Shown here: positions 33,473 through 42,998 of the stretch, in pieces
Position numbering within the stretch: position 1 is the stretch's first letter
Layout: every line of letters begins with the position of its first letter
DNA from: an uncultured Tateyamaria sp.
Lineage (GTDB): Bacteria; Pseudomonadota; Alphaproteobacteria; Rhodobacterales; Rhodobacteraceae
Length of the DNA: 64,000 nt
Assembly: GCF_947497045.1 (NCBI RefSeq)
Contig: NZ_CANMEU010000003.1
Span: 124,001-188,000 of the forward strand
Direction of reading: 5' to 3'
Notes under the pieces: model-generated
The model's input: only the letters and a program-made list of their open reading frames with translations
Databases searched by the model: none
What the model was told of the DNA's origin: nothing
Made by a program: the position numbers and the translations under genes

Positions 33473-34813
33473 TTAGGCGCCTGGGTTGCAGGAGCCCAGT
33501 TCGCCACCAAAGATCGACGCGTCATACGTGACCTGGCTGGTGGGTGTGACTTCCACGATCTCCAGAAGGTCGAACTCGGATGTCGGGTTCTCTTTTCCTT
33601 TCACGACCAGCACGTCCTTGAAGCACTGGTGGTCTTCGCCACGATAGAGCGTCGGGCCGTTGCCCATGCCGTCGAACTGGAAGTCCTCGAGGGCTTCGCC
33701 GACCGCGCATGGGTTGAACGAACCGGCCCGCTCGACCGCATCCGCATAAAGCAGCGCCTGCACGTAGCAGGTGTGTGCTGCCTGGCTGGGTGGGAAGCCG
33801 TATTTGGTGCCGAAGGATTGCACGAACGCTTTGGAGCCTTCGTCCTGCAACGACCAGTGCCAGTTGGTGGACCCGAAGATGCCTTTGACGTTTGCGCCCG
33901 CACCCTTCGCCATGAGGCGCGAGTAGAGCGGCACGACGATCTCGAAGTTCTTGTTGTTCACCAGCTTGTCGCGCAGGCCGAACTGAACCGCGTTTGTCAG
34001 CGAATTCACCATGTTCCCGCCGTAGTGGTTCAGAACCAGCACGTCCGCGCCCGATTGCAGAACCGGCGCGATGTAGGAGGAGAAGTCGGTTTGTGTCAGC
34101 GGTGTTTTCACAGCCGCAACAGTTTCCCAACCCATGGCTTCGGTCGAGGTCCGCACCGCTTCTTCTGTGGTATAGCCCCAGTTGTAGTCCGCCGTCAGGT
34201 GATAGGCCTTGCGGTCCGTGCCGTAGTTATTGGCAAGGATTGGGGCCAGCGCCGCACCGGACATGTAGGAATTGAAGAAATGGCGGAAGCCATTGGCCTT
34301 CTTGTCCTTGCCGGTGGTGTCGTTGGAGTGGGTCAGGCCGGCCATGAAGATCACGCCCGCCTCTTGGCAGAGCGCCTGCACGGCCACAGCCACACCGGAG
34401 GACGAGCCGCCCGTGATCATCACGGCACCGTCTTTTTCGATCATGGAGCGGGCCGAGGCGCGGGCCGCATCCGATTTCGTCTGCGTGTCGCCGGTGACGT
34501 ATTCGACTTTCTTGCCCAGGATGCCGTTGCCTTGCAGGGCCTTGGACGAGAACGTGTTCATCAGGCCGCCGTCGCCGCCGCCGTTCAGGTGTTCGACCGC
34601 CAGTTCGTAGGCGCGCAACTCGTCCGCGCCCTCATCCGCGTAGGGGCCGGTCTGTGGCACGTTGAAACCCAGTGTGACCGAGCTGCCTTCGGGCGCGTTG
34701 GTAAAGCCCGAATGGCCGTCCGCGCGCAGATACGTTGGCAACGTGAGACCAGCAGCGCCGGCCACTGCGCCGGTCTGGATCACGCCACGACGTGTCAGGT
34801 TCATCTTGGACAT
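33473..34813 (-). CDS. Liv-type ABC transporter substrate-binding protein
   Basis: 446 residues. A Tat-like leader (NLTRRGVIQTGAVAGAAGLT) suggests export in folded form. The mature part is a type 1 periplasmic binding fold of the Leu/Ile/Val family: LGFNVPQTGPYADEGADELR, ITGGSSSGVAVAVQALCQEAGV and DYNWGYTTEEAVRTS. The substrate is not deducible; family members bind amino acids, amides, urea or short organic acids. It is first in the operon. Confidence 0.9.
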   Translation of the reverse strand: MSKMNLTRRGVIQTGAVAGAAGLTLPTYLRADGHSGFTNAPEGSSVTLGFNVPQTGPYADEGADELRAYELAVEHLNGGGDGGLMNTFSSKALQGNGILGKKVEYVTGDTQTKSDAARASARSMIEKDGAVMITGGSSSGVAVAVQALCQEAGVIFMAGLTHSNDTTGKDKKANGFRHFFNSYMSGAALAPILANNYGTDRKAYHLTADYNWGYTTEEAVRTSTEAMGWETVAAVKTPLTQTDFSSYIAPVLQSGADVLVLNHYGGNMVNSLTNAVQFGLRDKLVNNKNFEIVVPLYSRLMAKGAGANVKGIFGSTNWHWSLQDEGSKAFVQSFGTKYGFPPSQAAHTCYVQALLYADAVERAGSFNPCAVGEALEDFQFDGMGNGPTLYRGEDHQCFKDVLVVKGKENPTSEFDLLEIVEVTPTSQVTYDASIFGGELGSCNPGA

Positions 34814-35047
34814 AAATATCCTCCCAAATGTTGAAATGCACCTCCCCGCTTCTTCGGGCAGGGGTGTGCGGCACCTTTTGATGCAAAGCAGTTATGCCGT
34901 CGCTTCGGAAAATTGCGCAATAACCCCCTTGTTTTTCACGATTATTTTGTAAATATATCCACAAGTTCGCGGCTCACTTTGTAAACTTCATTATGTTGCG
35001 TCGCAGAAACGCGTTGAAATGGAACACGAAACCAAAGGATGCAGCCC
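34814..35047. promoter_or_regulatory. Divergent promoter region with two TTTGTAAA motifs
   Basis: The 234-bp gap between the liv operon and the acyl-CoA-type regulator is AT-rich for this genome. TTTGTAAA occurs exactly at 34946-34953 and 34978-34985, and a 10-bp palindrome, attgcgcaat, at 34912-34921. The family of the adjacent regulator (RamB/PccR) is known to bind TTTGCAAA-like sites, so these are candidate operators. Confidence 0.6.
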
Positions 35048-36346
35048 ATGGCTCGTGAGGCATTGACCGGCACCCGCATCCGCGAACGCCGCGTGATGGC
35101 AGGCTACAAACAGTCCGATCTGGCCCGTCAGATCGGCATTTCCGCCTCATATCTGAACCTGATCGAACACAACCGGCGCAGAATCGGAGGCAAGCTGCTG
35201 CTCGACATTGCGCAGGCCCTTGCAGTTGAGGCATCGGCCCTGACCGAAGGGGCCGAAGCCGCCCTGATCGCGGCCCTGCGCGACGCGGGCGAGGGCACTC
35301 CCATGACCGAGGCCGAAGCGATGCGTGCCGAGGAATTCGCGGGCCGTTTTCCCGGCTGGGCCGAGGCGTTGGCGGCGGCCCATCGCAAGATCGCCGGACT
35401 TGAGCGCACGGTCGAATCCCTCAGTGACCGGCTGGCCCATGACCCGGCCCTCGCGGCGTCGGTGCACGAGGTTCTGTCCACCGCTGCCTCGATCCGGTCC
35501 ACCGCGTCGATCCTGGCCGGAGACAAGGACATCGCACCGGAATGGCGCGACCGCTTTCACGCCAATATCGACGCCGACAGCCGCCGCCTTGCGGAAAGTT
35601 CCAAAACCCTTGTCGGCTTTCTGGATGCCGAAACCGGCGAGGCGGCCTCGACCAGTTCCCCCCAGGAAGAGGTCGAGGCGTTTCTGCTGGCTCACGATTA
35701 CAGCTTTGAGGCCTTGGAAAAGGGGCGCACGGATGTCCCCACCTTGATCGCCGCCGCCCCCGAATTGTCGTCCCATGCCTCTCGTCACATCGCCGCTGGT
35801 ATCCTGACCCGCCTCAAGGCCGACAGCACGCGGGTGGCCATGTCCGATCTGCGCGCCGCGCTGGCGGCCAATATCACCGATCCGATCGATTTGTCGGAAA
35901 AGTTCGGTGTATCGATTGCGCGGATCATGCGCCGCCTCGCGTCAGTGCCCGAATATGGCTGCGGCCTTGTGGTGTCGGACCGGTCGGGCAGTCTGTTGTT
36001 TCGCAAAGGCATCGAGGGGTTCACGATTCCCCGCTTTGGGGCGGCCTGTCCGCTGTGGCCGCTGTTTCAGGGCTTGAGCCAGCCGGGGCAGGTCGTGCAC
36101 CAGCGGGTCCGCATGGCAGGGCGGGCGGACGCGGTGTTTGATTGCTATGCCACGGCCCAACCGATGGGCCGGGTTGTGCTGAACGTGCCCCCGCTGATCG
36201 AGGCCACGATGCTGATCGTGCGCGCGCCGAACGCGGCCCGGAACGAGGGCACCCCTGCCACTGAAATCGGGGCGGCTTGCCGGATTTGTCCGGTTGCCGG
36301 ATGCGCGGCGCGGCGCGAACCGTCGATCCTCAGCGACGGGTTCTGA
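35048..36346 (+). CDS. XRE-family short-chain acyl-CoA responsive regulator (PccR/ScfR/RamB type)
   Basis: 432 residues from ATG 35048, well spaced from AAAGGA. The N-terminal XRE helix-turn-helix (TRIRERRVMAGYKQSDLA, GISASYLNLIEHNRRRIGG) is joined to a long sensor region of the DUF2083 type ending in a Cys-rich tail (ACRICPVAGCAAR). In characterised relatives this family controls propionyl-CoA or acetate and glyoxylate genes. Divergent from the liv operon, so it probably controls that operon and itself; the link to acsA at 49 kb is inferred from shared motifs. Confidence 0.85.
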   Translation: MAREALTGTRIRERRVMAGYKQSDLARQIGISASYLNLIEHNRRRIGGKLLLDIAQALAVEASALTEGAEAALIAALRDAGEGTPMTEAEAMRAEEFAGRFPGWAEALAAAHRKIAGLERTVESLSDRLAHDPALAASVHEVLSTAASIRSTASILAGDKDIAPEWRDRFHANIDADSRRLAESSKTLVGFLDAETGEAASTSSPQEEVEAFLLAHDYSFEALEKGRTDVPTLIAAAPELSSHASRHIAAGILTRLKADSTRVAMSDLRAALAANITDPIDLSEKFGVSIARIMRRLASVPEYGCGLVVSDRSGSLLFRKGIEGFTIPRFGAACPLWPLFQGLSQPGQVVHQRVRMAGRADAVFDCYATAQPMGRVVLNVPPLIEATMLIVRAPNAARNEGTPATEIGAACRICPVAGCAARREPSILSDGF

Positions 36347-36351
36347 GGCTT

Positions 36352-36380
36352 TTGACAGAACGCCCAAAACCTCACATAGT
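36352..36380 (+). promoter_or_regulatory. Candidate sigma-70 promoter for the response regulator operon
   Basis: TTGACA at 36352-36357 and CATAGT at 36375-36380 are separated by exactly 17 bp, 65 bp before the response-regulator start. The -35 is perfect, the -10 is 4 of 6. Confidence 0.55.
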
Positions 36381-36445: not shown

Positions 36446-36820
36446 ATGGGCAAGCATGTTCTGCTCGTCGAAGACGAGACCAACATCATTGAAGCGATCC
36501 GTTTTCTGCTGAGCCGGGAAGGCTGGCAGGTCGATACCCATTCGGATGGGGCGACGGCGGTGGACACGATCCAGTCCATGCGCCCCGATCTGGTGATCCT
36601 CGATTATATGCTGCCGGGCAAAAGTGGGCTGGATATTCTGACCGAAGTGCGCGCCGATCCCGATTTTGCCAAGATGCCGGTGTTGATGCTGACGGCACGG
36701 GGGCAGTCGCGCGACCGCGAACAGGCTGAAAAGGCGGGGGTCAGCCGCTTTATGACCAAACCGTATTCCAATACCGAAGTCATGACGGCCGTGCGTGACC
36801 TTGTTCAACTGGCCCAATGA
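36446..36820 (+). CDS. Single-domain response regulator (CheY-like receiver)
   Basis: 124 residues, receiver domain only: acidic pocket VEDE at residues 8-11, phospho-acceptor Asp53 in VILDYMLPG, switch Thr in MLTARG and Lys in MTKPYS. No output domain. It is first in a three-gene unit with a membrane protein and a large histidine kinase, so it probably takes phosphate from that kinase and acts through protein contact. GGAGG precedes the start. Confidence 0.9.
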   Translation: MGKHVLLVEDETNIIEAIRFLLSREGWQVDTHSDGATAVDTIQSMRPDLVILDYMLPGKSGLDILTEVRADPDFAKMPVLMLTARGQSRDREQAEKAGVSRFMTKPYSNTEVMTAVRDLVQLAQ

Positions 36821-37116
36821 GTGACACTGGCACCTCTCCTCCTGTGTTCCTTGAGCAGCGCGGGTATCGTCGCCGCCGCTTGATGGATGCGTTGCGCCTG
36901 TTGCCGATTGCGGGCATCGCCTTGTGGCTGTTGCCGGTGTTCTGGCCGACCGTTGCGGATGGCCCTGACGCGCCCGAGCCGATGGCGATGTCGTCGGCGA
37001 TTGTCTATGTCTTTGTAGTGTGGATCGGTCTGATCATGGCGGCCTTTGCGCTGTGGGCGACATTGTTTGCCCATCGCGACACCTCCACCGACCAAGACGG
37101 CGAGGCCCCTAGGTGA
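36817..37116 (+). CDS. Small two-helix membrane protein between response regulator and kinase
   Basis: 99 residues with two hydrophobic segments (residues about 27-45 and 57-85) and a basic N-terminal stretch YRRRRLMDALR. Not recognised with certainty. Its position directly before a sodium/solute-symporter domain, with start and stop codons overlapping both neighbours (ATGA, GTGA), is that of the small DUF485/DUF4212-type partners of such transporters. Confidence 0.75.
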   Translation: MSDTGTSPPVFLEQRGYRRRRLMDALRLLPIAGIALWLLPVFWPTVADGPDAPEPMAMSSAIVYVFVVWIGLIMAAFALWATLFAHRDTSTDQDGEAPR

Positions 37117-39794
37117 CCTCCGTCAATCAGCTGATCGGCGTCAGCCTTGGCTATGTCATCTTTCTGTTTGCCATCGCCTATCTCGCGGAGCGTGCCGCGC
37201 AGCGGGGCAAGGGGGGGTGGCTGCGCTCTCCGCTCGTTTATACCCTGTCCCTGTCGATCTATTGCACCGCGTGGACGTTTTACGGTGCCGTCGGCTATGC
37301 GGCCCGGTCAGGGATGGAGTTCGTCACGATTTATCTGGGCCCCAGCCTTGTGATGATCGGCTGGTGGTGGGCCTTGCGCAAATTGGTGCGCATTGGGCGG
37401 GCGCAGCGGGCCACATCGGTGGCGGACCTGATTTCCGCCCGCTATGGCAAGTCCAACCTGCTTGCCATTGTGGTCACCATCATGGCCGTGATCGGCGTGA
37501 CCCCTTACATTGCGCTCCAATTGCAGTCAGTCACCCTGTCGCTGTCGATCTTTTCCGAACCCGGCGGGGATGCCCCGCTCAACCAGTTGATCGCGGGATT
37601 TTGGGTCGCCTTTGGCCTTGCGATCTTTACCGTCCTGTTCGGAACCCGGAACCTCAACGCCAACGAACGCCATGATGGCGTCGTGATCGCCATTGCGGTC
37701 GAAGCGGTTGTCAAGCTGATTGCACTGTTGGCGGTGGGCATCTTTGTGGTCTGGGGCGTGGCGGGGGGGCTTGCCCCGATGATGGAGCAGATTGACGCCT
37801 CGCCCATTGGCGCGTGGGACATGGATCGCAGCCGGTGGGTGGCGCTGACGGCCCTGTCTGCCGCGGCCTTTCTGGCACTGCCCCGCATGTTTCAGGTCAT
37901 GGTGGTCGAGAATGAGGACGAGCGGCACCTGCAAATCGCAAGCTGGGCGTTTCCGGTCTATTTGCTGCTGATGAGCCTGTTTGTGGTGCCCATCGCAGTC
38001 GTCGGCCTTGATCTGATGCCTGCGGGGTCCAATCCCGACCTGTTCGTGTTGACCGTGCCCTTGGCGCAGGGGCAGGTGGGGCTGGCTACTCTCAGTTTCC
38101 TGGGCGGATTTTCGTCGGCCACGTCGATGGTGATTGTGGCCACGCTGGCGCTGTCGACGATGATGTCCAACCATGTGGTGATGCCTGTGTGGCTCAACCT
38201 GCAAGGGCCGGGTGCGCAGGTGTCGGGGGATGTGCGCAATGTGGTGATCCTGTCGCGGCGCGCCTCGATCCTGATGATCATCGGGCTTGGCTATCTCTAT
38301 TACCGCTTTTCGGGCGGTGGCTCGGCGCTGGCGGCGATGGGTTTGATCTCATTTGCGGGGGTGGCGCAGTTCCTGCCTGCGATGATGGGCGGTATTTTCT
38401 GGCGGGGGGCGACGCGGTGGGGAGCATTGGCGGGGCTGTGTGTCGGTTTTTCCGTCTGGGTCTTTTGTTCGCTGCTGCCCAGCTTTGGCCCCGGTGCGGT
38501 GCTGAGTGTTGCCACCTTCGACACCGGGTTGTTTGGCCTATCATGGTTGCGCCCGCAGGCCCTGTTCGGGATCAGCGGGCTGGACCCGACCGTCCACGCC
38601 ATCGTGTGGTCGATCACGCTGAACACGACGGCCTTCGTGATCGTGTCGCTGTTCACCTTTCCCGGCCCGCTTGAGCGGTTGCAGGGCGCGCAATTCGTCA
38701 ACGTCTTTGATCATTCCACCCAAGCCCGGGGCTGGGACGCCGCCCTTGCCACCTCCGAAGATCTGCTGATTATGACGCAGCGGATATTGGGGGCTACCGA
38801 GGCGCTTGACCTGTTCCGTGCCGAGGCTGCGCGCCAGGGCGTACAGGGCCATCTGCCCGAACCCACACCGGGTTTTCTGCAACAGCTTGAGCGTGAATTG
38901 ACCGGCTCGGTCGGAGCCGCAACTGCGCATGCCATGATCAGCCAATTGGTCGGGGGCGCATCGGTGTCGGTGCAGGATTTGATGGCGGTGGCGGACGAGT
39001 CCGCGCAGATCCTCGAATATTCCAACCAGCTTGAGGCAAAATCGTCCGAACTCAGCCGCACAGCGCGCAAGCTGCGTGACGCCAACGCGAAACTGACCGC
39101 GCTTTCGGTGCAGAAGGATGCATTCCTCAGCCAGATCAGTCACGAATTGCGCACGCCCATGACCTCGATCCGCTCGTTTTCGGAAATCCTGCGGGATACG
39201 GATGGGTTGGGGCAGGTCGAAAAGACGAAATATGCCTCCATCATCCATGGTGAGGCGATCCGTCTGACGCGGTTGCTGGATGATCTGCTGGACCTCAGTG
39301 TGTTGGAAAACGGGCAGGTCAATCTGAACTTCGAGACCGGGACACTCAGCACTGTTCTGGAAAAGGCGATCCTGACGGCGCAGGCCAGCGGGACCGGCCC
39401 GTTGGACATCCGGCGTCGTCATCTGGACGAGGCGGTGACCCTGACCACCGACCTTGATCGGCTGACGCAGGTCTTCATCAATCTGATTACAAATGCACAG
39501 AAATATTGTCAGGCGGACGAGCCGCGGCTGGTGATTGAAGTGCGTCAGGACGACGGTGCGATTGCGGTCGTCTTCTCGGACAACGGCATGCCGATCCCCC
39601 CTGCGGCGCGTGCGCTGATTTTTGAAAAATTCGCCCGGATCAGTGACAATGACGAGGCGGGCGCGGGTCTTGGCCTCGCGATTTGCCGCGAGATCATGAC
39701 GCGGCTTGGGGGCGAAATCTCGTTTCAGGGCGGGCCGTCGGGCAATGCGTTTACCGTTCATCTGCCGACACAGGCGGCGCTGGCTGCTCAATAG
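37113..39794 (+). CDS. Histidine kinase fused to a sodium/solute-symporter domain
   Basis: 893 residues starting with GTG. Residues 1 to about 500 form a sodium/solute symporter-type transporter with about 13 helices (IYCTAWTFYGAVGYAARSGMEF, SVADLISARYGKS, SATSMVIVATLALSTMMSNH). A linker of about 150 residues leads to a histidine kinase: phospho-His677 in ISHELRTPM, N-box NLITNAQKYC, and G-box GAGLGLAI. This is the CbrA-like architecture in which the transporter module senses or carries the signal solute. Signal unknown. Confidence 0.9.
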   Translation: MTSVNQLIGVSLGYVIFLFAIAYLAERAAQRGKGGWLRSPLVYTLSLSIYCTAWTFYGAVGYAARSGMEFVTIYLGPSLVMIGWWWALRKLVRIGRAQRATSVADLISARYGKSNLLAIVVTIMAVIGVTPYIALQLQSVTLSLSIFSEPGGDAPLNQLIAGFWVAFGLAIFTVLFGTRNLNANERHDGVVIAIAVEAVVKLIALLAVGIFVVWGVAGGLAPMMEQIDASPIGAWDMDRSRWVALTALSAAAFLALPRMFQVMVVENEDERHLQIASWAFPVYLLLMSLFVVPIAVVGLDLMPAGSNPDLFVLTVPLAQGQVGLATLSFLGGFSSATSMVIVATLALSTMMSNHVVMPVWLNLQGPGAQVSGDVRNVVILSRRASILMIIGLGYLYYRFSGGGSALAAMGLISFAGVAQFLPAMMGGIFWRGATRWGALAGLCVGFSVWVFCSLLPSFGPGAVLSVATFDTGLFGLSWLRPQALFGISGLDPTVHAIVWSITLNTTAFVIVSLFTFPGPLERLQGAQFVNVFDHSTQARGWDAALATSEDLLIMTQRILGATEALDLFRAEAARQGVQGHLPEPTPGFLQQLERELTGSVGAATAHAMISQLVGGASVSVQDLMAVADESAQILEYSNQLEAKSSELSRTARKLRDANAKLTALSVQKDAFLSQISHELRTPMTSIRSFSEILRDTDGLGQVEKTKYASIIHGEAIRLTRLLDDLLDLSVLENGQVNLNFETGTLSTVLEKAILTAQASGTGPLDIRRRHLDEAVTLTTDLDRLTQVFINLITNAQKYCQADEPRLVIEVRQDDGAIAVVFSDNGMPIPPAARALIFEKFARISDNDEAGAGLGLAICREIMTRLGGEISFQGGPSGNAFTVHLPTQAALAAQ

Positions 39795-39888
39795 CTGTGC
39801 TTAAAATACTGTTGTGTTGTAAAGCGGTTGGTAACCAATCTGGCCTAGACCTGAGCGCGTAATGGCGAGCCGCGCGGCGGCGGAGGAT

Positions 39889-41070
39889 ATGGGCGACACC
39901 AAACCAGACACCGTGTTGGGGCGCATCGCGGCCGCTGGTCGCCAAGAGCGTGACGCGCGCGCAATGACGCTGCAAAAGGCGATGCGTCTCAGCGTGGCCA
40001 AGGTGGCGGATACGCTGATGGATCTGCCCATGGCCGTGATCGGGGCCGTGGTTCAGGGGGTCAGCGGTGAAAACGTGCCCGATATGCTGGACGACGAGGT
40101 GCTGTTGATGTTGATGGACGGACCGCGGGGCTGCGTCGGGGCGGCGATGATTGATCCGGTTGTGGTGGGCGGGCTGATCCAGCAGCAAACCATGGGTAAG
40201 GTACAGCCCGACAAGGGGGACAGTCGGCCGATGACCCGCACCGATGCCGCTGTGTGTGCGCCCCTTTTGGACGCGGTGATTGCACGGGTTGCGGGGATAT
40301 TGGATGACGCGGGCGATCGCGCCCTGATTGATGGGTTTTGTTTTGGGGCCAAGGCGGAGTCGGGGCGCACGCTGGCCATGGCGCTTGAGGCGTCAGACTA
40401 TACCGCGATCAAACTGACGGTGGATATGGCGCGCGGCGCACGGCAGGGCGAGATCACGCTGATTCTGCCCAATCCCGAGGCCCGGGAAGAGCCGCATGAC
40501 AGCGCAGAAGACGGCACGGCCCCCCAAGCACCGGCGGCTGACCTGTCGTCGACGGTGATGGGTCTGCATGCAGAGTTGAACATGGTGATCTGCCAGATGG
40601 ATCTGCCGCTGAGTGCGGTGCGCGCGCTTGAGGTCGGTGACGCCTTCCCGCTCACACCGGGGCAGTTCCCGTCTGTTCAGATCACGACGACAACGGGGCG
40701 CATCATCGGGCGTGGCATTGTCGGGCAGGTCGATGGAATGCGCGCCGTCAAGCCACAGCGCAAACCGCTCCATGCCTCGCAACCCTTGCGCAGGGCCAGC
40801 GATGAGCCGCTGGTCGACATGCCCCAGGTCGAGGAGTTTGTGACCGCCCGGCGGCGCGAAGAGGACGCGGATGAGGTCAGCGATCAGGAGTTGGAGGCGA
40901 CCATGGCCGCGCTTGACGCGGAGCTTACGGCGTCAGACCTGCCTGATCTTGCAACGCCTGTTGCGGTGGCGGACGACACATCGCTGCCGGATCTGGATGA
41001 TCTGCCGGACCTCGCCGACTTACCGGACCTTGCGGATTTGCCCGATCTCGCCATGCAAAATGTAGGTTAG
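39889..41070 (+). CDS. Orphan FliM/FliN-like protein with Asp-Leu-Pro repeat tail
   Basis: 393 residues from ATG 39889 (ATG 39862 in frame is the alternative; GGAGG sits close before 39889). The N-terminal part has the FliM-like middle region (RLSVAKVADTLMDLPMAVIGAVVQG). A surface-presentation-of-antigens (SpoA) domain of the FliM/FliN C-terminal type occupies about residues 215-290 (MDLPLSAVRALEVGDAFPL). The tail holds about four tandem DLPDLA units. No other flagellar gene is near, so whether it works in motility or in a signalling output of the kinase upstream is open. Confidence 0.8.
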   Translation: MGDTKPDTVLGRIAAAGRQERDARAMTLQKAMRLSVAKVADTLMDLPMAVIGAVVQGVSGENVPDMLDDEVLLMLMDGPRGCVGAAMIDPVVVGGLIQQQTMGKVQPDKGDSRPMTRTDAAVCAPLLDAVIARVAGILDDAGDRALIDGFCFGAKAESGRTLAMALEASDYTAIKLTVDMARGARQGEITLILPNPEAREEPHDSAEDGTAPQAPAADLSSTVMGLHAELNMVICQMDLPLSAVRALEVGDAFPLTPGQFPSVQITTTTGRIIGRGIVGQVDGMRAVKPQRKPLHASQPLRRASDEPLVDMPQVEEFVTARRREEDADEVSDQELEATMAALDAELTASDLPDLATPVAVADDTSLPDLDDLPDLADLPDLADLPDLAMQNVG

Positions 41071-41501
41071 GGGGCCTTGGCCCGCGCAATCGCCACAAGC
41101 GTCGGGCGCAGGTTGTCCAGATCATATCCGCCTGCGCGGGCCGCCGCCAGAATGTCGTCGGCCGCCATCTGTCTGGCCTGACCCAGACACCACACCACGG
41201 TCGAGCGTGTTCCGGAGGCGCAATAGGCCAGCACCGCACCCTGCGCGTGCGCGGCTATGTCCATCTGTGCGCCCACATTTTCCGGGTTCATCGTCTGGTG
41301 CGTCAGCGGCAGCCGCACAAATTCCAGCCCCGCCGCCCGTGCCGCCTGTTCAACCGCATCGGCCTGGAAGGCGGGCGGCACCTCGGCGTCGGGGCGGTTG
41401 CAGATCACGGTTGTGATGCCTGCGGCGGCCACGGCTTGCATATCCGTGGGGTCAACTTGCGGGGCCACAAAATAGGTTGGGGTGATTTGTCGGATGTCCA
41501 T
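41067..41501 (-). CDS. TIGR01244-type phosphatase/sulfurtransferase-like domain protein
   Basis: 144 residues. DIRQITPTYFVAPQVDPTDM, ICNRPDAEVPPAF and the loop YCASGTRSTVVW (a CX5R phosphatase-like cysteine loop) identify the beta-lactamase-hydrolase-associated domain. It usually occurs with sulfane-sulfur and sulfide genes, which fits the YeeE/YedE pair 9 bp upstream. The activity in the cell is unproven. Confidence 0.85.
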   Translation of the reverse strand: MDIRQITPTYFVAPQVDPTDMQAVAAAGITTVICNRPDAEVPPAFQADAVEQAARAAGLEFVRLPLTHQTMNPENVGAQMDIAAHAQGAVLAYCASGTRSTVVWCLGQARQMAADDILAAARAGGYDLDNLRPTLVAIARAKAP

Positions 41502-41510
41502 GGTCGCAGG

Positions 41511-41942
41511 CTATGCCGCCCTCTCGGCACTGTCCAGCGCGCGGCGCAGACGCGGGACAGCTCCCATGCCCGTCAGCATTGCCGCAAGGAACAGGGCCCC
41601 CTGCCATCCGCCATAGCTCAGCGATGCCAGCGCAGGGCCGGGGCACAATCCAACAAGGCCCCAGCCAATGCCAAACAGCACCGAGCCGACGATCAACGGA
41701 CGGGTTATCTCGTGCCGGGGCGGGGCCGGAAAGGTGCCGCCCGACAGCGGAGCCCGCCCCCGCGTCACCCGCCATGCCACTGCCATCGGCAGGATCGCGC
41801 CCCCCATCACAAAGGCCAGCGTCGGATCCCACGCGCCCGCAAAATCCAGAAACCCCCGCACCTTTGTTGTATCGGTCATGCCCGAGATGTGCAGGCCTGC
41901 GCCAAAGAGTGCCCCGCTGAGCGCTGCAATCATCAAACGCAT
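41511..41942 (-). CDS. YeeE/YedE-family sulfur transport protein, second half (DUF6691 type)
   Basis: 143 residues from ATG 41942, four helices. GALFGAGLHISGMTDTTKVRGFLDF and FGIGWGLVGLCPGPAL are the repeated YeeE/YedE motif with the conserved Cys of the transport path. Together with the next gene it makes the equivalent of one full-length YeeE (thiosulfate or persulfide import). Confidence 0.88.
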   Translation of the reverse strand: MRLMIAALSGALFGAGLHISGMTDTTKVRGFLDFAGAWDPTLAFVMGGAILPMAVAWRVTRGRAPLSGGTFPAPPRHEITRPLIVGSVLFGIGWGLVGLCPGPALASLSYGGWQGALFLAAMLTGMGAVPRLRRALDSAERAA

Positions 41943-42361
41943 CACAGACCCAACCCGATCCGCATCGCCGTGACCGTCATCGCGCCCGCGCCGATATAGG
42001 CCAGCGTCGCCGCAAAACCACGTACCGACAGGCGCGACATCCCGCACACCCCGTGCCCGGATGTGCATCCGTTGGCAAAGCGTGTGCCGATCCCGACGGC
42101 CAGCCCGCCTGTGATCAACAGCACCGGGGCCGAGGCTGCCTGCGTGTCGACCTGCCAGCCACCAAGGCTCATCAGCGCGGGCATCCCGATCAGCCCTGCA
42201 ATGAATGCAAGTGTTGAACCCCGATCGGTTGCGGACCCGTCAATCAGTCCACCGACAATGCCGCTTGCCCCCATGATGCGTCCGTTGCCCAGTAACATCA
42301 GCGCCGCTGCACTGCCGATCAGCAGACCGCCGATCAACCCGTATATCCACTCTATCTGCAT
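41942..42361 (-). CDS. YeeE/YedE-family sulfur transport protein, first half
   Basis: 139 residues, four helices: GLIGGLLIGSAAALMLLGNGRIMGASGIVGG and FANGCTSGHGVCGMSRLSVRG, with the Gly-rich cysteine motif of YeeE. It overlaps the second half-gene by one base (TGATG). Confidence 0.88.
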   Translation of the reverse strand: MQIEWIYGLIGGLLIGSAAALMLLGNGRIMGASGIVGGLIDGSATDRGSTLAFIAGLIGMPALMSLGGWQVDTQAASAPVLLITGGLAVGIGTRFANGCTSGHGVCGMSRLSVRGFAATLAYIGAGAMTVTAMRIGLGL

Positions 42362-42615: not shown

Positions 42616-42734
42616 GCGCGCAGGGCTACCGCAGGCCCGGGCGGTTGGCAAGAACGCTGCGGCCCCAAACCCTCTTGCAGGGCGGGATGCACCCGGCTAT
42701 CCCGCGAGTCACCCTCAAGCGCCAGGAGCCTGAC

Positions 42735-42998
42735 ATGACCGACACCGCCACCAATGCCGAAAGCTATCGCGTCACCGCCGACGAGCTGCGCCAGTTCATC
42801 GAGCGTATCGAGCGTCTGGATATGGAAAAACGCGATCTGGCGGATCAGCAAAAAGAGGTGATGGCCGAGGCCAAGGCCCGCGGCTATGACACCAAGGTCA
42901 TGCGCAAGGTCATCGCGCTGCGCAAACGTGACAAGGACGACATTGCCGAAGAAGAAGCGGTGTTGGAGATGTATAAAGAGGCGCTTGGCATGAGCTGA
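42735..42998 (+). CDS. GapR-like DUF2312/UPF0335 protein
   Basis: 87 residues from ATG 42735 with AGGAG upstream. The coiled-coil core LRQFIERIERLDMEKRDLAD, then RGYDTKVMRKVIALRK and EEEAVLEMYKEALG match GapR of Caulobacter, a chromosome-associated protein that binds overtwisted AT-rich DNA and supports replication and division. Orthology is inferred from sequence pattern alone. Confidence 0.9.
   Translation: MTDTATNAESYRVTADELRQFIERIERLDMEKRDLADQQKEVMAEAKARGYDTKVMRKVIALRKRDKDDIAEEEAVLEMYKEALGMS

Follow-up and report, generated by a model that had tools for sequence, protein, structure and literature searches.

The DNA analyzed here is a stretch of 64,000 nucleotides (the window) from an uncultured Tateyamaria sp. 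of the Rhodobacteraceae (contig NZ_CANMEU010000003.1), and the locus under study, at positions 36446 to 41070 of the window, carries four genes: a stand-alone receiver, a small two-helix membrane protein, a transporter-fused histidine kinase and a SpoA-domain protein. All four were found as open reading frames (ORFs), and their coordinates and the 4-bp overlaps at both junctions, 36817–36820 between the receiver and the small gene and 37113–37116 between the small gene and the kinase, agree with a preliminary description of this DNA. The SpoA gene follows the kinase after 67 bases when counted from 39862, where its ORF opens, or after 94 bases if it starts at ATG 39889, which is preceded by GGAGG and fits the MGET-type start of most relatives in the alignment. 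The features of the locus are as follows.

36446..36820, plus strand: stand-alone receiver with Asp53 as phospho-acceptor (Pfam Response_reg, 1.6e-26)
36817..37116, plus strand: two-helix membrane protein, CbrX-like by position and topology (hydropathy, predicted model)
37113..39794, plus strand: SLC5-STAC-HisKA-HATPase_c histidine kinase (transceptor), GTG start (Pfam, 10ed_A profile match)
39820..39836, plus strand: CtrA-like element TAAAG-CGG-TTGGTAACC in the gap between kinase and fliM (pattern match)
39889..41070 (ORF open from 39862), plus strand: most likely the flagellar motor switch protein FliM of the ancestral fla1-type flagellum (model, fold search, PF01052)

The kinase contains HisKA (3.2e-17) and HATPase_c (3e-21) catalytic domains in Pfam, with the phospho-acceptor His677 in a SHELRTPM motif that starts at residue 676, and the Pfam search found no PAS domain in it. 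Positions 1–609 of a profile of residues 1–650 match residues 6–590 of 10ed_A (E = 7.2e-83), a solved chain of 606 residues named 'histidine kinase', which we take to be CbrA of Pseudomonas because its Lys at position 196 fits K196 of the CbrA paper. Lys201 is the equivalent residue here; this Na2-site lysine is invariant in 10/10 aligned kinases, and its retention makes coupling of the SLC5 step to protons probable. The set of 149 genomes, one per genus, that is the basis of all genus counts in this work has the kinase in 133 genera (E ≤ 1e-60).

The small protein has hydrophobic stretches at residues 26–42 and 61–77 by hydropathy, and its predicted model, which is of low-to-moderate confidence (mean pLDDT 65), consists of helices 15–37 and 59–88. 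No family scored over its cut-off in Pfam or NCBIfam, and profile matches to the protein lie beside the kinase start in 129 of the 133 kinase-bearing genera. The arrangement resembles CbrX-CbrA of Pseudomonas in its SLC5-STAC kinase, its overlapping upstream two-helix gene and its conserved lysine. According to the available part of the published account (PMC13022988), CbrX is a two-helix protein encoded by an overlapping gene just upstream of its partner CbrA, packs on the SLC5 domain and is dispensable for growth on histidine. Unlike in CbrX-CbrA, a receiver gene here precedes the small gene, and the similarity to CbrX is one of position and topology: the search of solved chains, in which the inclusion of CbrX is unconfirmed, gave no convincing similarity for the small protein, the only weak match being the OTOP2 proton channel (E = 0.02). 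The preliminary description had proposed that the sensor is a transporter complex with a two-helix companion, and the CbrX-CbrA precedent, the 10ed_A match and the retention of Lys201 support this proposal.

The receiver has 124 residues, and Response_reg is the only Pfam domain over its cut-off, which bears out the earlier view of it as a CheY-like receiver with no output domain. Its top NCBIfam matches are PhoB/OmpR-type models, all under their cut-offs. Residues E9, D10, D53, T83 and K105 are invariant in 20/20 aligned receivers, including those of relatives without FliM. The same SLC5-STAC-kinase architecture is used for carbon-source sensing by CrbS/CrbR (acetate) and RpuS/RpuR (pyruvate). 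However, those two systems use DNA-binding regulators of the LuxR type, and PAS domains occur in the rhizobial kinases, as far as the available text of PMC9100948 goes, while CbrB of CbrAB is described as an AAA+/HTH sigma-54-type regulator. The DNA-binding output of the CbrAB, CrbSR and RpuSR regulators was not found in the receiver here. Since the known SLC5-STAC systems, in the available parts of PMC9100948 and PMC13022988, use DNA-binding regulators, the lack of an output domain genuinely sets this unit apart, and the receiver must therefore act by protein contact or onward phosphotransfer. Receiver, two-helix protein and kinase are an SLC5-STAC histidine-kinase ('transceptor') two-component unit. 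In such a unit the SLC5 domain would bind or transport a small solute, by analogy probably a carboxylate or an amino acid, the two-helix protein would pack on it as CbrX does, the STAC domain would relay its movement to the kinase, and the receiver would take up phosphate from the kinase at Asp53.

The SpoA protein scores 23.1 bits against PF01052, just under the cut-off of 23.8, and 26.1 bits in a six-frame search, which is over it and upholds the flagellar-switch-type domain of the preliminary description. PF01052 is matched at E ≤ 0.01 by 52/52 aligned proteins, the window protein included. An AlphaFold model from a 52-row alignment of the window and locus proteins has a mean pLDDT of 81, with block values of 92–98 over residues 31–200. 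The seven top fold matches in the PDB are C-ring or motor chains aligned over 276–283 columns and both domains, one of which (8umd_C) is named FliM, and below them come middle domains of FliM as well as CheC and SpoA chains. A match to Salmonella FliM was also obtained with the profile (1.7e-9). Like Salmonella FliM in C-ring structures such as 8umd, the protein has a CheC-like middle domain and a C-terminal SpoA domain, but identity in the fold matches is 14–16% and, unlike Salmonella FliM, the Tateyamaria protein has a long C-terminal tail of LPDL repeats.

The genomic context is consistent with this assignment. PF01052 matches in the same genome comprise only the SpoA gene and a 98-aa FliN, with no other FliM candidate. 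The genes for FliF, FliN and FlhA lie together on another contig, and fliG is about 73 kb from the locus on the same contig. The preliminary description had stated that there are no flagellar genes nearby; this is correct between 33 and 46 kb of the window, the stretch examined for them, but the genome does encode the flagellar proteins just named. In genome G136 a homologous FliM (A3 profile, 7e-23) ends a run with fliF, fliP, fliG, flgI and flgK. In G128 a weaker homologue (4e-14) is separated by other genes, over a distance of about 6 kb, from fliP, fliF and a gene with FliG_N/M domains. Both genomes have the kinase unit elsewhere, which makes it probable that, within the family, fliM left the flagellar cluster and came to lie at the kinase locus. 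The FliG_N/M-domain gene of G128 (L143 13059–13658) encodes a 200-aa FliG_N + FliG_M protein beside fliP that has no FliG_C match; a FliG_C match lies elsewhere in that genome. Other ancestral Rhodobacterales FliM proteins encoded off the flagellar cluster are FliM2 of Cereibacter (Rhodobacter) sphaeroides and FliM of Roseibacterium elongatum. In the available portion of PMC7277832, the genes for FliM and FliG of this flagellum in R. sphaeroides (its Fla2, which is the fla1-type of a 2025 survey) are described as lying 'elsewhere in chromosome I'; for R. elongatum, the available portion of PMC4149021 places both genes outside the flagellar cluster. The main text of the 2025 survey of the fla1-type flagellum, as available, has FliM once only, in a reference title (PMC12363192).

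For family-wide counts, genera with a FliF or FlhA match at E ≤ 0.001 were labeled flagellated (122/149), FlhA being the sole basis in four of them (G091, G104, G111 and G133) and the matches of G089 being weak and probably of secretion type. The other 27/149 genera, with neither match, are called FliF/FlhA-negative, and sets of these were completed by subtraction. One of them, the 74% complete G068, gave FliM and FliN matches of another type; it is probably flagellated and is not to be called flagella-less.

The CtrA-like pattern, which was derived from the site before fliM and from related sites, has no other match in the window (0.04 expected). The GTAACC/TTAACC core is present in the kinase–fliM gap of 53/87 flagellated and 9/13 FliF/FlhA-negative genera, compared with 2.7 and 0.4, respectively, expected from mononucleotide shuffles; 3 of 103 gaps, shorter than 40 bases, were dropped from this count. 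Upstream of fliG the core is not clearly present (3/16 vs 0.9 expected). In the available text of PMC7277832, R. sphaeroides fla2 genes, fliM and fliG among them, are turned on by CtrA.

Several observations weigh against the FliM reading or against control of the upstream site by CtrA. Over whole chains the fold matches reach TM-scores of only 0.34–0.47, with an rmsd of about 20 Å, because the relative placement of the two domains differs; the fit to isolated FliM middle domains is better (target TM-scores 0.57–0.69). No GG of the FliG-binding motif GG-x-G was seen in the stretch of the protein that aligns with Salmonella FliM, an alignment that is weak (2.9 bits). The N-terminal motif with which FliM usually binds phosphorylated CheY was not recognisable by eye in an alignment of 14 relatives. 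Putative control of the site by CtrA is deduced from its motif, which shows no enrichment in the 20 kb examined of the genome's own flagellar cluster (5 matches vs 3.3 expected). A role in the motor does not by itself explain the FliM of 15/27 FliF/FlhA-negative genera (see below). The likeness to R. sphaeroides FliM2 is drawn from its published description. Finally, the available report of a transposon screen in P. inhibens has no fliM among the motility genes, although fliN was unhit too (PMC12363192). On balance we identify the 'orphan SpoA' protein as most likely the FliM of this cell's flagellum; what is unusual about it is its location, not its identity.

The tail of LPDL/DLPDL repeats, loosely conserved, occupies 40950–41060 of the window and recurs in other Tateyamaria loci; it is possibly a relocated receiver-binding segment. 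As a flagellum-linked feature the tail was rejected as too loose: at least one motif occurs in 60% of 83 flagellated vs 33% of 12 FliF/FlhA-negative genera, in a tally that skipped rows without a recognised SpoA end.

The genes and signals flanking the locus are as follows.

33473..34813, minus strand: periplasmic binding protein of a branched-chain-amino-acid-type ABC transporter, upstream and divergent (Pfam Peripla_BP_6, 2.2e-71)
35039..36346, plus strand: ScfR/RamB-type regulator, upstream gene of the conserved block, with HTH_3 and a short-chain fatty acyl-CoA regulator C-terminal domain (Pfam ScfRs 3.5e-13, HTH_3 1.3e-10)
36352..36380, plus strand: sigma-70-like promoter match TTGACA-17-CATAGT before the receiver (consensus match only; 3 matches in the region scanned vs 1.2 in shuffles)
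41067..41501, minus strand: beta-lactamase-hydrolase-like phosphatase, convergent with fliM (Pfam BLH_phosphatase, 8.3e-30)

Farther downstream are a pair of minus-strand genes at 41511–42361 for a DUF6691 protein and a YeeE/YedE-type (Sulf_transp) protein, detected in 54 and 52, respectively, of the 80 named loci, and a gene for a GapR-type DNA-binding protein at 42645–42998 (Pfam 4.9e-33).

These 80 named loci were retrieved with the SpoA protein as query, and the closest of the named relatives among them is an uncultured Tateyamaria with a 90% identical SpoA protein. Whether relatives keep the four genes together had been proposed as a check, and the order receiver, small gene, kinase, SpoA gene is kept in 78/80 loci found with that query; in the two exceptions the receiver and/or the small gene was undetected, and one of them is a short contig. 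Kinase and FliM are adjacent in 88/101 flagellated genera and in 13/14 negative genera with a FliM match at E ≤ 1e-20. Because FliM binds CheY-type receivers and the receiver has no output domain of its own, the preliminary description had drawn a chain in which the transceptor kinase phosphorylates the receiver and the receiver binds FliM, linking solute sensing to the SpoA protein. As evidence of such a pathway the adjacency was rejected, since the flanking genes are about as conserved as fliM: the transporter gene, ScfR and the phosphatase are neighbours in 75, 79 and 75 of the 80 named loci and in 23, 24 and 17 of 25 further kinase-bearing loci. Moreover, the kinase is kept in 7/12 FliF/FlhA-negative genera that lack this FliM (G150, with a weak linked FliM, was counted as FliM-bearing, hence 7/12), and receiver and small gene were present in 5/5 upstream regions fetched from these seven. 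It is also kept in genera whose flagella have another FliM. In L146, L148, L150 and L151 fliM is gone and the phosphatase directly follows the kinase. Since the sensor unit persists without FliM and the flanking genes are about as conserved, the adjacency lends no support to a receiver-to-FliM chain.

The upstream element of fliM, the PhoB/OmpR-type affinities of the receiver and the unrecognisable CheY-binding motif point the same way. We therefore regard the linkage of solute sensing to the SpoA protein through the receiver as very improbable and the chain as an obligate pathway as unlikely. The transporter-kinase with its two-helix companion thus survives from the preliminary interpretation, but the SpoA protein as the dedicated target of the receiver does not, given its most likely identity as FliM, its own element and the kinases kept without it. 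The lone receiver could instead be a phosphate sink or a phosphorelay step and carry no output, which would suit a single-domain protein with invariant phospho-site residues. Beyond the kinase unit, ScfR is the sole near-constant neighbour able to be an effector, and this upstream regulator may be one partner of the receiver; a sink or relay we think possible but doubtful. By far the most probable arrangement is one of independent neighbours, a transceptor two-component unit beside an ancestral-flagellum FliM that has its own CtrA-like element.

The distribution of FliM in the family raises a separate question. Fifteen of the 27 FliF/FlhA-negative genera keep this FliM, 14 at E ≤ 1e-20 and one at 6.7e-14, and each of the 15 has exactly one PF01052 match, thus no FliN was detected. 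FliG is present in the same 15 genera and in 0 of the other 12, one of which is G068. Both proteins are therefore kept in 15/27 genera (loci L126–L141 and L271–L285) and neither in 12/27 (Fisher 5.8e-8 for 27 genera, uncorrected for relatedness). When the count is confined to the 23/27 negative genera with a completeness of 90% or more, both proteins occur in 13 and neither in 10 (Fisher 8.7e-7). With correction for relatedness, the two proteins are concordant in 5/5 independent pairs (p = 0.0625). The preliminary description had allowed that the SpoA gene might be conserved only with complete flagellar loci; with 15/27 counter-examples, retention of FliM only alongside flagella is rejected. 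FliM was matched in 101/122 flagellated vs 14/27 negative genera (Fisher 0.0016, raw), but across independent pairs the tie between flagellum and FliM is not significant (median p 0.375). On the kinase tree, a one-gene quick tree of 133 kinases, the flagellum label changes 21 times, at least 12 of them forced by well-supported branches, and losses are therefore many and scattered. Uninterrupted frames were found in the negative genera for 15/15 FliG and 14/15 FliM, the fliM of G179 (L141 3772–5142) being broken by an in-frame TAG. The median FliM/kinase rate is 2.66 in negative (n = 15) vs 2.22 in flagellated genera (n = 93; p = 0.02), with one piece of the broken G179 gene used.

In genus g146, whose genus-mates were classed by FlhA only and of whose five genomes two are at least 90% complete and three are below 90%, FlhA was found in 0/5, FliG in 5/5 and FliM in 3/5 genomes. 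The dN/dS is 0.16–0.17 for FliM (3 pairs) and 0.05–0.15 for FliG (3 pairs); in one of the FliG proteins the match begins only at residue 137, and another is truncated at the locus end. A gene that by eye is lipid A acyltransferase-like (L292 1926–2817) follows fliG (841–1863) after about 60 bp in this genus. Pseudosulfitobacter-type FliM has a dN/dS of 0.09–0.24, compared with 0.04–0.21 in nine control pairs. Of the loci of this type, L058 and L060 are FlhA-negative, L062 has a sub-cut-off FlhA and L085 is outside the FlhA test, as are the flagellated control-pair partners L104, L105, L110 and L101; the control pair L047–L049 was dropped for a FliM dN of 1.98, taken as a frame fault. The search of the named loci covered 50 of the 80 and FlhA only, and an FlhA match was lacking in 10/50 searched genomes with FliM, including Pseudosulfitobacter koreensis, P. 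pseudonitzschiae, Aestuariivita boseongensis and Tateyamaria sp. Alg231-49. Additional or sole FlhA-like matches that fall far short of the flagellar cut-off occur in the genomes of L047, L056, L062, L089 and L106 (G184, G193, G198, G215 and G224) and perhaps represent non-flagellar type III secretion.

Two explanations of these genera have to be weighed. FliM and FliG may be leftovers that lay outside a deleted flagellar cluster and decay later, a serious rival to any flagellum-independent role and one that we consider evenly balanced between right and wrong. Both genes do lie off the flagellar cluster, FliM shows mild relaxation and one broken copy, fliM has been cleanly excised between kinase and phosphatase in other lineages, and the upstream motif core persists in negative genera, as leftovers would allow. 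They account less well for dN/dS values far below 1 in g146, where FlhA is absent from all five genomes, for the intact frames, and for the 27/27 concordance, with no negative genus having only FliM or only FliG. The concordance and the dN/dS values of g146 and the Pseudosulfitobacter type would instead suit a FliM-FliG pair with a flagellum-independent role in some lineages, kept or lost together, as would losses that are scattered on the kinase tree and that, over independent pairs, are not tied to loss of FliM, even though the raw table ties them. We hold such a role to be somewhat unlikely: after correction for relatedness the co-retention reaches only the paired value given above, the FliM rate is mildly raised and the G179 gene broken, g146 includes a partly matched FliG and three less complete genomes, a FliN, FliF or FlhA partner is missing, and recent losses could explain the retention. 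In the available portion of the open-access literature searched, we found no report of FliG/FliM retention in non-flagellated or non-motile bacteria. More tentative still is the idea that in several Rhodobacterales lineages, after loss of the flagellum, FliM and FliG, under purifying selection without FliN, FliF and FlhA, make up a stand-alone switch module, conceivably read by the receiver of the transceptor.

For the Rhodobacterales, our analysis likely places the fliM of their common flagellum beside a conserved sensor locus. A further addition is an SLC5-STAC system, spread through the family, whose companion is CbrX-like and whose receiver lacks an output domain. The joint survival of FliM and FliG without FliF and FlhA would not be expected from their known job and is the part most worth following.

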